Assembly (NCBI RefSeq): GCF_034064985.1
Contig: NZ_CP139249.1
Span: 3,534,001 to 3,598,000, forward strand
Direction of reading: 5' to 3'
DNA from: Acinetobacter pittii
GTDB lineage: Bacteria > Pseudomonadota > Gammaproteobacteria > Pseudomonadales > Moraxellaceae
DNA: 64,000 nucleotides
The position numbers and the translations under genes were made by a program. Below, in pieces: positions 20,307 to 25,139 of this stretch. Position 1 is the stretch's first letter, and every line of letters starts with the position of its first letter. The notes under the pieces were generated by a model. That model ran no database searches. It was not told the DNA's origin and was given only the letters and a program-made list of their open reading frames with translations.

Positions 20307-21479
<1,173 letters not shown>

Positions 21480-21494
21480 TTAACACCAAGATAA

Positions 21495-21530
21495 AAAAAT
21501 CCCCGCTCAATGCGGGGATTTTTATTTTAT
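21495..21530. repeat. Copy 1 of a 36-bp direct repeat (terminator) flanking the HD/GHKL gene
   Basis: Bidirectional hairpin with an 8-bp stem (ATCCCCGC with GCGGGGAT, loop TCAAT) embedded in AT runs. It matches the sequence at 24616-24651 in 35 of 36 positions; the only difference is G here and A there, next to the loop. It contains the stop codon (21527-21529) of the minus-strand HD/GHKL gene and sits 15 bp after fadA. Confidence 0.9.
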
Positions 21531-24500
21531 TTTTGTATCCAATTTGGATAAATTGTATTAATAAGCTTACTAATTTTTTCTTCTAATTTTTTATATAGTG
21601 TTAGAAAATCTTCAAATTTTAAATCTTCAAACTCTTCATCTCTTGAATCCCACGTAGATCTCACTAATTCATTATCTTCTAAATAGTCTATTCTAATATT
21701 CGGCCCCGCTTCTAAATCTTTAGAAAAAATATAGAATGGTAGAATTAAATGCTTAACATTTAAGTTCTCTAATCCGACTAACCGCTCTACTAGAATTGAT
21801 TTAGTAAATAAGGCTTTAAATTCTCTAAAAAATATTTTAGACATCCACTCTTGATTAAAATTAATTCTTTTCCTATCTTGTTGTATTGCAAATTTTATCT
21901 GATTAACTATACGAAAATCCCCACTTTCGATCTCATGTGTTTTTTCTGTCGAATATCGTACAATTTCTCCTCCTCCTTTAATTTTTTCAGTAGAAACAAA
22001 CCCACCTTTATCAATCCAATCTTGGTCAAAATAGTCTTTAAACCAACTATTAAATGGAGCTGGATAAACTAAATCATTAGTTGATAAATTAGATATATCA
22101 AAATTAGGATTTATGAACTCATCTATGTAATAAAAATTAAATTTTTTTAGACTTAACAAATCTTTAAAACTTTTATTATAAATCTTACATTTTTTATTTT
22201 TATGTTTATAATTAGGCCATTTATCAACATTAAACATCTGAATTTCTTTCCAAGAAATCTTACTCTTATCCTCATTAAAACAAAAATCAAATAAATCAAT
22301 AATTTTACTATCTTTTAATATATCTATAAGCTGATCTTTATACTCATCTAGAATATGCCTACATAACTCATGCAAAAATCTATGCTCAATAAATTTACGC
22401 TCAAAGTCTTTACTCCATTCATTTCTATTGGTTTGTAGTGTACTTTTTGCTTCTAAGCCAAAAAACATTAAATAAAAACCAAATATCTGATTATAATAAC
22501 TTATTCTACCAACGTTCTGACCTTTAAATCCTCCATCAAGTCTACTATGAAGTTCATTTAAATTGGAAATTTTAATTTCATCAACTATTAAATAAAGACT
22601 GTATTTATCCACCCAAATAATATTATCAAAAGTGTTTTTTTGTTGAGGAAAAACACTATTAATTTTCACCTGCCATTCTTTATTAAATTCATAAGGCAAA
22701 CATATATTTCTCAAGACTTCATCTTTTATATTCTCAACTTGCGTGGCTATATTAAACACATCAAACATTTCCTCCTTTAAAGGGTCATGTTTTGTATACA
22801 AAAATTTATATAGCTCTGAGTTGTTGTAAGAATAACTTCTAGCTCTTCTTTTCTTTTTTAATCTCAAAATTAAAGTTGTACCTATATCTTTTTTTATTTC
22901 TTTTTGCTCTTCAATAAAACAATAACCTTTTTTAGATTTTAATGGAGAATTTAATTCAATTTTGTATGTCTTATAATCAACTGAATTTGTACTAATAATC
23001 GTAATTTTCTGATCTTCCTCATTGATATCTTTTAAGAGCAAAAAAGCACTATGCAATCCTATTCCAAACTGGCCAGATGGTCTCATCCATATTGGCATTC
23101 TATTGATTATTTTTTGACGCTCTATATTTCTACTCGAACCTGCAACCTTTTGCATATAATTCAAATCAAGTAAACTAATTCCAGTTCCTTTATCTTCAAT
23201 TTTAAATTCCCACCAAGCATCATCGCTACCATCAATAATTCCGATCCGTTCAAAGGATATTTCAAGAGCATAACTCTTTAAAATATTTTGTACTTTATTA
23301 TCAAAAGGATGGGGATTTTTGGGTAATTTTATACGTCCTTTCTCAAAATCACACCATACTTGTATTAATGTTGCATCGATTGCATTTTGAATTAACTCTC
23401 TAAAGATATTAGTATCATTTTTATATAATCCACTTCCTTCTAAAATCTCTAAGGCATTGTTTTCATCAATAGAAAATTTCATTGGCTTATTGCTTAATAA
23501 AATTTTATTACCTTGCATCCTTACGTCTAGCTGCTCAATTGTTGGTAAAGAACCAAACTCTAAGCTTGGTACAATAAAGTTCCATTGAGACATTTGATTT
23601 TGGAATTCTTGACGTATCCAACCAAACCAATTTTGAGTTTCGACATAAGACATTTCATCAGGACATTCTGCGACAAGCTTTACTGTTCGTTTATCAAGTT
23701 GAAATTCACGCAATGATAAATGCTTATCATGATGATGTTTACTTACAGAGGGCATATTGCTGACGTGCTTTGCCATAACAGGGCAAAAGCGGTTGTCATC
23801 TAAATCAAATAGATCACCTAAACGAAGTAAACACCCTATAAAACGCGGATGACAATCTTCAGTCCCCAAACCAGTTTGTTTATAGAGAAGTGTTTCCATT
23901 AAAGTATCAAAATTCATACCATGAGAGACACAAATTTGCCCTAAATATCGATAAATTCGGTTTGGTAATAGTTCAGTTCTGGGTGATGTAATACCTAGAT
24001 CTTTAAAGGGATCTTCAACAATCTTGCCAACTCGCTTGTCATGCCCGCGTCGAAACCACTCAGCAACTAATTGACGGTATTGCTCAATCCCATCAAAAGG
24101 ATGGTCTACAATACCAATGGCTGATAACCAATTTTGCTCAACATAAGCTTGGCAAAATTTTTGAAGATCATGCCCTTTTTCATTTGCTATTGTTTGAATC
24201 ATGAAATTGAAATCAGGATTTGTATGGACTTCTTTTGCATTTTTAGCATCAACCAACATGCCAACATCATGCCAATAAGCCGCTTCAAGAATAAGCCAAG
24301 TATCAGTAGCACTTAATAGTTCAATATCATTTCCTAGAATTCGCTCGATATTCACTAAAATCTGCTGTGAATGTGAAGCATTATGATTACTAAAATGTGG
24401 GTAAAAACCACCAATATTTTCTAATGCTTTTCCTACTAACTTTTGATCGAACTCCCATTGAGCATATAAAATTGCAACATTATCATCTGCCTCGCATTTA

Positions 24501-24532
24501 TTCTTGAGGTGTTGAATTAATCTTGTACTCAT
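21527..24532 (-). CDS. HD domain - Hsp90-like (GHKL) ATPase fusion, conflict/defence-type
   Basis: A 1001-residue soluble protein. Residues about 35-340 look like a divergent HD phosphohydrolase-type domain: FSNHNASHSQQIL (His50/His54), AYWHDVGMLV (His88-Asp89), H164-D165, His204 and RLGDLFDLDDNRF (Asp240). Residues about 350-560 are a GHKL ATPase of the Hsp90 type: N-box FRELIQNAIDA (Glu379, Asn383, Asp386), G1 box EDKGTGIS (447-451), G2 box SGQFGIGLHSAF (486-496) and DIGTTLILRL (549-557). Residues 560-1001 are unrecognised and AT-rich. The architecture recalls HD/Hsp90-like ATPases described in conflict systems; defence is an inference. It is a single gene, flanked by a 36-bp direct repeat, between fadA and a gene ending in the second copy. 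Confidence 0.85.
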   Translation of the reverse strand: MSTRLIQHLKNKCEADDNVAILYAQWEFDQKLVGKALENIGGFYPHFSNHNASHSQQILVNIERILGNDIELLSATDTWLILEAAYWHDVGMLVDAKNAKEVHTNPDFNFMIQTIANEKGHDLQKFCQAYVEQNWLSAIGIVDHPFDGIEQYRQLVAEWFRRGHDKRVGKIVEDPFKDLGITSPRTELLPNRIYRYLGQICVSHGMNFDTLMETLLYKQTGLGTEDCHPRFIGCLLRLGDLFDLDDNRFCPVMAKHVSNMPSVSKHHHDKHLSLREFQLDKRTVKLVAECPDEMSYVETQNWFGWIRQEFQNQMSQWNFIVPSLEFGSLPTIEQLDVRMQGNKILLSNKPMKFSIDENNALEILEGSGLYKNDTNIFRELIQNAIDATLIQVWCDFEKGRIKLPKNPHPFDNKVQNILKSYALEISFERIGIIDGSDDAWWEFKIEDKGTGISLLDLNYMQKVAGSSRNIERQKIINRMPIWMRPSGQFGIGLHSAFLLLKDINEEDQKITIISTNSVDYKTYKIELNSPLKSKKGYCFIEEQKEIKKDIGTTLILRLKKKRRARSYSYNNSELYKFLYTKHDPLKEEMFDVFNIATQVENIKDEVLRNICLPYEFNKEWQVKINSVFPQQKNTFDNIIWVDKYSLYLIVDEIKISNLNELHSRLDGGFKGQNVGRISYYNQIFGFYLMFFGLEAKSTLQTNRNEWSKDFERKFIEHRFLHELCRHILDEYKDQLIDILKDSKIIDLFDFCFNEDKSKISWKEIQMFNVDKWPNYKHKNKKCKIYNKSFKDLLSLKKFNFYYIDEFINPNFDISNLSTNDLVYPAPFNSWFKDYFDQDWIDKGGFVSTEKIKGGGEIVRYSTEKTHEIESGDFRIVNQIKFAIQQDRKRINFNQEWMSKIFFREFKALFTKSILVERLVGLENLNVKHLILPFYIFSKDLEAGPNIRIDYLEDNELVRSTWDSRDEEFEDLKFEDFLTLYKKLEEKISKLINTIYPNWIQK

Positions 24533-24615
24533 ATCTTTATTTTTAAATAAGTATAGTTATACCCATAATAACGCAACTTTTATTTTTCAATCCAAATAAC
24601 AGATTCTTTTTAAAT

Positions 24616-24651
24616 AAAAATCCCCGCTCAATACGGGGATTTTTATTTTAT
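24616..24651. repeat. Copy 2 of the 36-bp direct repeat (terminator)
   Basis: Nearly identical to 21495-21530 (one mismatch). It contains the stop codon of the next minus-strand gene (24648-24650) at exactly the same repeat offset (32) as copy 1 contains that of the HD/GHKL gene. It can act as a terminator on the minus strand. Confidence 0.9.
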
Positions 24652-25139
24652 CGGCCTTTTAAACCATCTTGTATTTGCTGCTGTAATTTCATGAGGTCAC
24701 TAATATTTACTTTCATCGTACCTTCACGATAAGCATCGACATTACTTCGGTTAATGTTCAAAGGTCTTAACATTTCAAAAATACCATTGGTTGGATCAGA
24801 AGACTGTATCCCCCCTGCTACCGCTAAAATGTATTGTTGTAAGAATGGAGAAAGTTGAGACAGATCAGGCTGTGCCATAACTGGCTGATAATCTACCGTA
24901 GTCATGCCTTCAGGGACTAAAGCATTCTGTATATCGTAATGCGTTTTATACTCATGATGTTGAAGAGTCTGACGCACTTTTTTATCTTCTTGGAAGGGTA
25001 CAAATCCTACCTCTTCACGTAGCTCAGATTCAGCCATAACGCGAATTGTTGGTAAAGTCGCTACTTCCTCTGCTTGAACAGTCGGTAAACCCATAAAAGC
25101 AAATGCAGCAATGAAGGCTGATTGTTTTAGAAAGTTCAT
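24648..25139 (-). CDS. Secreted hypothetical protein
   Basis: A 163-residue protein from the ATG at 25139, with a GGAG ribosome-binding site eight bases ahead. It has a clear Sec signal peptide (NFLKQSAFIAAFAFMGLPTV, cleavage near QAEE). The mature start ATLPTIRVMAESELREE resembles the short segment just after the signal in TonB-dependent receptors, but no plug or barrel follows. The rest is Gln/Pro-rich and ends in a helical DLMKLQQQIQDGLKGR. Family not recognised. Before the presumed insertion of the HD/GHKL gene it would have been the convergent neighbour of fadA. Confidence 0.75.
   Translation of the reverse strand: MNFLKQSAFIAAFAFMGLPTVQAEEVATLPTIRVMAESELREEVGFVPFQEDKKVRQTLQHHEYKTHYDIQNALVPEGMTTVDYQPVMAQPDLSQLSPFLQQYILAVAGGIQSSDPTNGIFEMLRPLNINRSNVDAYREGTMKVNISDLMKLQQQIQDGLKGR

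Follow-up and report, generated by a model that had tools for sequence, protein, structure and literature searches.

The 64,000-nucleotide window analysed here (positions 3,534,001–3,598,000 of contig NZ_CP139249.1 from Acinetobacter pittii, assembly GCF_034064985.1) contains one HD-CE/GHKL-ATPase gene bounded exactly by two copies of a 36-base-pair terminator, next to the housekeeping gene fadA. The arrangement raises the question of how a single gene can come to lie between two terminators when no recombinase is found beside it. The 3′ end of fadA is a widespread chromosomal slot in the genus Acinetobacter for one or a few changing genes of the defence type. On balance, it is somewhat probable that genes enter and leave this defence slot by homologous recombination in its flanks, with no recombinase dedicated to the task. 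The features of the locus are the following.

20307–21479, plus strand: fadA, encoding a 3-ketoacyl-CoA thiolase of 390 residues, the left anchor of the slot, recognized from its open reading frame (ORF) and from matches across the genus.
21495–21530, no strand assigned: terminator copy 1, on the fadA side, which holds the stop codon of the HD-CE gene.
21527–24532, minus strand: HD-CE/GHKL-ATPase gene, 1001 residues, recognized from its match to PF24391.
21527–23512, minus strand: variable GHKL-ATPase and C-terminal part of the gene, in about four classes, recognized from between-class DNA identity and motifs.
23513–24532, minus strand: conserved N-terminal HD-CE module, approximately residues 1–340, recognized from DNA identity among homologues and the invariant H88-D89.
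24533–24615, minus strand: region upstream of the HD-CE gene, with the right joint at the A-tract of terminator copy 2.
24616–24651, no strand assigned: terminator copy 2, in the right flank, which holds the stop codon of the secreted-protein gene.
24648–25139, minus strand: secreted-protein gene, 163 residues from its ATG, recognized from its ORF and as the neighbour of fadA in empty sites.

The ORF at 20307–21479 is taken to be fadA, a name also used in a preliminary description of this DNA. The word secreted is a label from the same description, and the gene so named has no Pfam family.

The two terminator copies differ at one position (35/36 identical). A search of the 3.89-Mb genome for their 29-base-pair core, with up to three mismatches allowed, finds these two sites alone, and a reversed control pattern gives no match. 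The hairpin pattern, with at most one mismatch, is observed twice in the window, where 0.01 occurrences are expected. A chance repeat was rejected on the basis of this identity, uniqueness and expectation. Both copies fold on both strands into hairpins of −18.6 to −21.4 kcal/mol (z −4.7 to −5.8; 0/200 shuffles as good). Because the hairpins are strong on the two strands and flanked by A- and T-runs, each copy could stop transcription arriving from either side. The TAA stop codons of the HD-CE gene and of the minus-strand gene to its right, whose stop begins at 24648, are both positioned at offset 32 of the repeat, because the stop is part of the common tail ATTTTTATTTTA. Two relatives of the HD-CE gene in other species (L035 and L076) have a similar ending, TTATTT.TG. 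In the window, the HD-CE gene is not bounded by a transposase, an integrase or a true inverted repeat, the longest inverted pair across it being the palindromic terminator itself. The genome search, the folding against shuffles and the ORF positions bear out the preliminary description, which had reported two 36-base-pair copies differing at one base, each a bidirectional hairpin terminator with the stop codon of a minus-strand gene at offset 32, and no visible transposase, integrase or inverted repeat. A longer stem (AAATAAAAATCCCC.../GGGGATTTTTATTT) is possible in the right-hand copy (24612–24648 of the window; L047 at 4490) than in the copy on the fadA side, which is possibly a hint at how the joint arose.

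The FadA protein is matched in 149/149 genomes of the genus, in 140 at E < 1e-220 and in nine by weaker thiolase matches only. The sequence following fadA was examined in 102 loci, comprising the window, G023, and 100 loci fetched from 99 of the 149 genomes, mostly ordered by fadA identity. The secreted-protein gene is the first gene of at least 100 residues past fadA, at a distance of 47–74 nucleotides, in 27/102 loci. In the empty sites of G166 and G142, the exact 36-mer is present as a single copy, which has the context of copy 1 on its left, that of copy 2 on its right, and the secreted-protein gene after it; the single copy in G004 and G008 has one mismatch and is likewise followed by that gene. 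A single bidirectional terminator is common to fadA and the convergent secreted-protein gene in many species. These sites support the earlier proposal that the two genes once shared one terminator, since relatives without the HD-CE gene show fadA, one terminator and the secreted-protein gene. Two outcomes named in advance as contrary to the proposal, the presence of both terminators and the gene in all relatives or unrelated sequence at the junction of empty sites, were not found.

The left flank of the window is 95–99% identical to that of G004 up to the terminator, and the right flank is 90–99% identical across the first 1.35 kb, so that, judged by sequence comparison, the flanks look native up to the terminator. 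A transposon-like element with a 36-base-pair target-site duplication would likewise have left both terminator copies matching the empty-site sequence, as they do. However, the window contains no transposase or terminal inverted repeat, the genome has no third terminator copy, the repeats at other inserts of this site differ in length, and 36 base pairs lie far above the usual length of target-site duplications. Such an element is very improbable.

In a tree of the two neighbouring genes from 21 loci, the sister of the window is G004 (96.7% identity), and the sister of A. seifertii is G008 (95.5%), both with empty sites. In A. seifertii, the HD-CE gene lies between terminator copies as in the window, and its right joint is homologous. 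The region 24533–24615 aligns well to A. seifertii and more weakly to A. haemolyticus and A. courvalinii; the right-hand terminators of these species start at a similar distance from the HD-CE start codon (offsets 83, 83, 79, and 72). The homologous joint, which has diverged about as much as the sequence beside it, is what would be expected if the block of terminator, HD-CE gene and terminator were old in the branch of the window and A. seifertii, with many precise deletions between the terminators and no recent gain. A deletion between the repeats would also yield exactly the observed empty sites. By contrast, the pattern of presence on the 21-locus tree requires two gains as opposed to the nine losses of an old block (counted by hand on the two-gene tree), and the HD-CE genes of the window and A. 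seifertii belong to different classes of the 3′ half. An old block without recent gain is therefore regarded as doubtful.

The fadA slot was considered occupied if another ORF of at least 100 residues lay between fadA and the first backbone gene, the backbone clusters having been picked by the author according to cluster size. Counts of slots and terminator types leave out L119, a short contig, and L057, the second fadA place in G117, with an atypical flank. The two close fadA copies of G117 (L056 and L057) are about 0.96 Mb apart, and the unusual region downstream of the second is without the normal terminator. At least one non-backbone ORF is present in 60/100 fadA loci, and these ORFs form 59 clusters; the control gap between two neighbouring genes is occupied in 3/61. 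The occupancy is 47/100 without clusters C19 and C25, which are possibly old residents. The cargo consists of one to three genes in 56/60 occupied loci. Matches to PADLOC defence models at E < 1e-40 were obtained for 11/20 cargo proteins, picked by the author and without a background rate: Drt2, AbiU, a SIR2 protein (PDC-S25), AbiLi, NsnA, RmrA, viperin (pVip), PDC-M03A, PD-Lambda-2 B (twice), and PD-Lambda-2 C. Cargo is found in 34/42 loci with the AACCCCGC-type terminator as opposed to 12/56 with the ATCCCCGC-type (Fisher p 4e-9, uncorrected for kinship). The site has the properties of a core-gene hotspot, with an anchor gene throughout the genus and a highly variable cargo in a stable neighbourhood. 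The preliminary description had proposed a search for other cargo at this site, and the 60 occupied loci, defence families included, provide it.

Two groups of cargo recur in the slot. Genes of cluster C27, at most 381 residues long and with hydrophobic stretches recognized by eye, are present at fadA in five genomes (L122, L052, L044, L112, and L126); the cluster has no Pfam family and is a candidate for a new defence gene. A cassette of C36, C30, and C31 (L068, L106, L124, L135, and L108) starts with GTCCC directly after the terminator, and its version in L108 has a viperin gene in place of C36.

HD-CE genes are present in 10/175 Acinetobacter genomes, in nine of the ten at fadA, and 8/8 named loci adjoin fadA. 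One of the nine, G120, has a 444-residue ORF, transposase-like by eye, between the HD-CE gene and fadA. In A. seifertii NIPH 973 (L047:530-1864 oriented; L148:8544-9878), the HD-CE gene is shortened to 818 residues, and a 444-residue ORF of transposase-like appearance sits between it and fadA. A distant HD-CE relative in G170 (525 bits; L178, G170:C12:137594-139552) has 1.5-kb flanks without fadA and is the sole such case in Acinetobacter. Carriage of HD-CE genes by plasmids or phages was considered and rejected, because relatives are found on four plasmid records and one phage record, all with less than 60% identity, and none of these records is from Acinetobacter.

Terminators that score above shuffles are present on both sides of the HD-CE gene in 4/10 loci, those of the window, A. 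seifertii, A. haemolyticus, and A. courvalinii. In eight named loci, none of the direct repeats of at least 24 nucleotides around the HD-CE gene bound it. Other cargo is marked by a second kind of footprint, a displaced copy of the 3′ end of fadA beyond the insert, defined by a score of at least 24. It was sought in 100 loci, a set that leaves out L107 and L119 as too short and differs from the 100 of the slot counts. Such a copy is present in six of them (five clear, and L071 at exactly 24.0), and controls with three gene families gave 0/55, 0/68, and 0/31 (0/154 together). The remnants in five measured loci are 36, 45, 45, about 101, and about 221 base pairs long. The empty relative L111 has a single fadA 3′ end followed by the same sequence as in L122. 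Counted from the fadA stop codon, the duplicated stretch reaches from +18 to +54 in the window and from −45 to +24 in L122, so that the overlap between them is an A-run only.

A second slot, which contains HD-CE, Lamassu (LmuB), Hachiman (HamB), and RmrA genes and displaced purL 3′ ends, was observed at the 3′ end of purL in Psychrobacter (L150–L158, L168, and L170; L179–L218). Of 10 named Psychrobacter HD-CE loci, nine have a convergent purL no more than about 2 kb downstream, and in the tenth the contig stops at this point. There are 14 other Psychrobacter genomes with HD-CE genes, of which 11 were included in the purL search; the gene is within about 2.5 kb of purL in eight, is not in two, and is split across contigs from it in one. 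Among the 40 genomes fetched out of 59 that bear purL, the slot holds cargo in 37/39 loci, the short L181 being left out of this count, and 3/10 cargo proteins picked by the author match LmuB, HamB or RmrA at E < 1e-40. Remnants of the purL 3′ end occur in 6/40 loci and are 66, 107, 107, 143, 158, and 211 base pairs long; the two of 107 base pairs (L211 and L212) have a common cargo and joint. Copies of the purL terminator beyond the cargo score above the reverse-strand control in 8/40 loci. L168 contains a short repeat cluster between the HD-CE gene and purL, and because the best terminator copy (L217) resembles it, the Psychrobacter case rests on the coding remnants of purL.

Islands of the transfer RNA (tRNA) type, which are inserted by integrases, also restore the target gene and displace its 3′ end to the far side. 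It was considered that an unlinked tyrosine recombinase might integrate the cargo at an attachment site provided by the 3′ end of fadA or its terminator, the repeats being attL and attR. The displaced 3′ ends and restored targets at fadA and purL resemble tRNA-type integration, the identical joint of one cargo in two Psychrobacter genomes (L211 and L212) is in keeping with a site-specific enzyme, and the genome of the window has seven PF00589 genes elsewhere. A profile of tyrosine recombinases was built from seven sequences, recovers 7/7 known ones in leave-one-out trials, and supersedes a motif that finds 1/7 known integrases and a two-sequence profile. With this profile, no tyrosine recombinase was found in the 142 slot loci, 102 from Acinetobacter (most about 15 kb) and 40 from Psychrobacter (most about 8 kb); the sole match up to E 1 was in a backbone gene, at E 0.0037. 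Unlike in the islands, there is no common recombination core, because the repeat ends vary by cargo: remnant lengths differ between cargoes at both fadA and purL, and the stretch duplicated in the window coincides with that of L122 in the A-run only. Integration by an unlinked recombinase is thus judged unlikely.

Together with the absence of Acinetobacter from the plasmid and phage records that hold relatives, the lack of a recombinase in the 142 loci and the cargo-dependent repeat ends favour general recombination in conserved flanks for the spread of the cargo; a one-sided illegitimate joint is suggested for its founding. In the preferred explanation, recombination in the flanks, the HD-CE gene would have entered the lineage of the window sideways by homologous recombination, through fadA and the terminator on one side and the terminator and secreted-protein gene on the other. 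The DNA would probably have been taken up by natural transformation, from a relative that already held the gene between two terminators. Natural transformation between Acinetobacter species is documented in PMC8787482. The doubling of the terminator may be traced to the founding insertion, one end of which would have been joined to the 3′ end of the target through a match that was short or illegitimate, by homology-facilitated illegitimate recombination (HFIR) or a similar process. Such joints would also leave the remnants of fadA and purL 3′ ends beyond some other inserts. The second terminator would keep both convergent genes terminated and supply two homology arms, so that the HD-CE gene could easily be exchanged or precisely lost, or have its variable 3′ half replaced. 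One-sided illegitimate recombination is documented in A. baylyi, and as described in PMC3240628, HFIR in A. baylyi, S. pneumoniae, and P. stutzeri combines a homologous and an illegitimate joint, which could give a restored gene and a variable remnant. However, these were laboratory events with linear DNA, whereas the fadA slot is known from footprints only.

Several observations weigh against filling by recombination in the flanks. No donor tract is visible in the flanks of the window, and transfer is therefore inferred from the tree and the patchy distribution. Only in the window and A. seifertii do the two terminators nearly match each other and resemble the local empty site; the right copies in A. 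haemolyticus and A. courvalinii are better matched by the terminator of another species, and 6/10 HD-CE loci have no right-hand copy within 300 nucleotides. Phylogeny is a confounder of both terminator type and cargo. In a fourth control family, C3, 2/55 loci exceeded the remnant threshold; the family was set aside because its members are paralogues standing side by side. L071 keeps just about 15 nucleotides of fadA. The repeat in L134 (G161; 1–110 and 1830–1990) covers the 3′ end of fadA, the terminator, and the first part of the following gene, and resembles a tandem duplication more than an insertion. Ahead of the cargo's terminator in G130 (L122), the spacer is of the recipient type, an outcome not expected of a simple crossover within fadA. 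In L202 and L204, the purL remnant lies beyond genes P2 and P3, which were counted as backbone. The connection of the HD-CE gene to defence consists entirely of its genomic company, and PADLOC 2.0.0 assigned no family to the protein at E up to 1.

A more general proposal is tentative and has less than even support. According to it, the 3′ ends and terminators of housekeeping genes, fadA in Acinetobacter and purL in Psychrobacter, would be recombinase-free attachment sites. Defence cassettes would carry a piece of the 3′ end or terminator of the target as a homology arm, and general recombination would install, remove, and swap single immune genes. In HD-CE genes, most of which lie at these two sites in the two genera, the variable 3′ half would be exchanged between the terminator and the conserved 5′ half.

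The HD-CE protein belongs to the Pfam family PF24391, with 182.9 bits compared to the gathering cut-off of 27. The match to the GHKL ATPase family PF13589 is under its cut-off (21.6 bits compared to 25), and positions 345–515 weakly match the Hsp90 family (endoplasmin 2esa, E 0.0028). The HD dyad H88-D89 is invariant in 25 homologues, as are N383, D386, G449, G451, G490, and G492 of the GHKL motifs. The protein contains the motifs ELIQNAIDAT, DKGTG, and GQFGIG, which are presumed to be the N, G1, and G2 motifs of GHKL ATPases. In seven Acinetobacter homologues, DNA identity per 150-base-pair stretch is 76–95% across the first approximately 1 kb; past it, the homologues fall into about four classes, with between-class identity mostly 30–75% per stretch. 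As far as these comparisons reach, the gene is composed of a fixed N-terminal module and a variable ATPase and C-terminal part. The protein is probably an anti-phage effector, in which a fixed module resembling HD hydrolases would be gated by an ATPase of the Hsp90/GHKL type and a variable half would serve recognition.

The fadA slot resembles the hotspots cDHS1 and cDHS2 of Pseudomonas aeruginosa (PMC10250203), which lie between conserved core genes, vary in their defence cargo, and show no obvious single group of mobile elements; the discussion of that paper names homologous recombination in conserved flanks as a route of transfer. Unlike the cargo described for cDHS1 and cDHS2, that of fadA is small, as counted above, and directly adjoins a single housekeeping gene's terminator, and a duplicated terminator or gene 3′ end is found on the flanks of some inserts. 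The main text of PMC10250203 does not use the word terminator. The small cargo at the terminator of a housekeeping gene, the displaced 3′ ends, and the occurrence in two genera distinguish the slot from the P. aeruginosa hotspots. A literature search, in which the survey of Acinetobacter defence hotspots by Yi et al. (2025) was not covered, found no paper tying fadA or purL to a defence hotspot; the fadA site may already be in print in that survey.

Some defence hotspots are enclosed by core genes and have no clear mobile element. The footprints at fadA and purL, which bear on how such hotspots are filled, are unusually readable: empty versions of the same site, doubled terminators, and displaced 3′ ends of variable length, in two genera and at two anchor genes. 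A. baylyi is a laboratory species that is non-pathogenic and naturally transformable, and the route by which the slot is filled is directly testable in this species. The slot also singles out candidate immune genes: the HD-CE family, which is outside PADLOC, and uncharacterised neighbours, cluster C27 among them.

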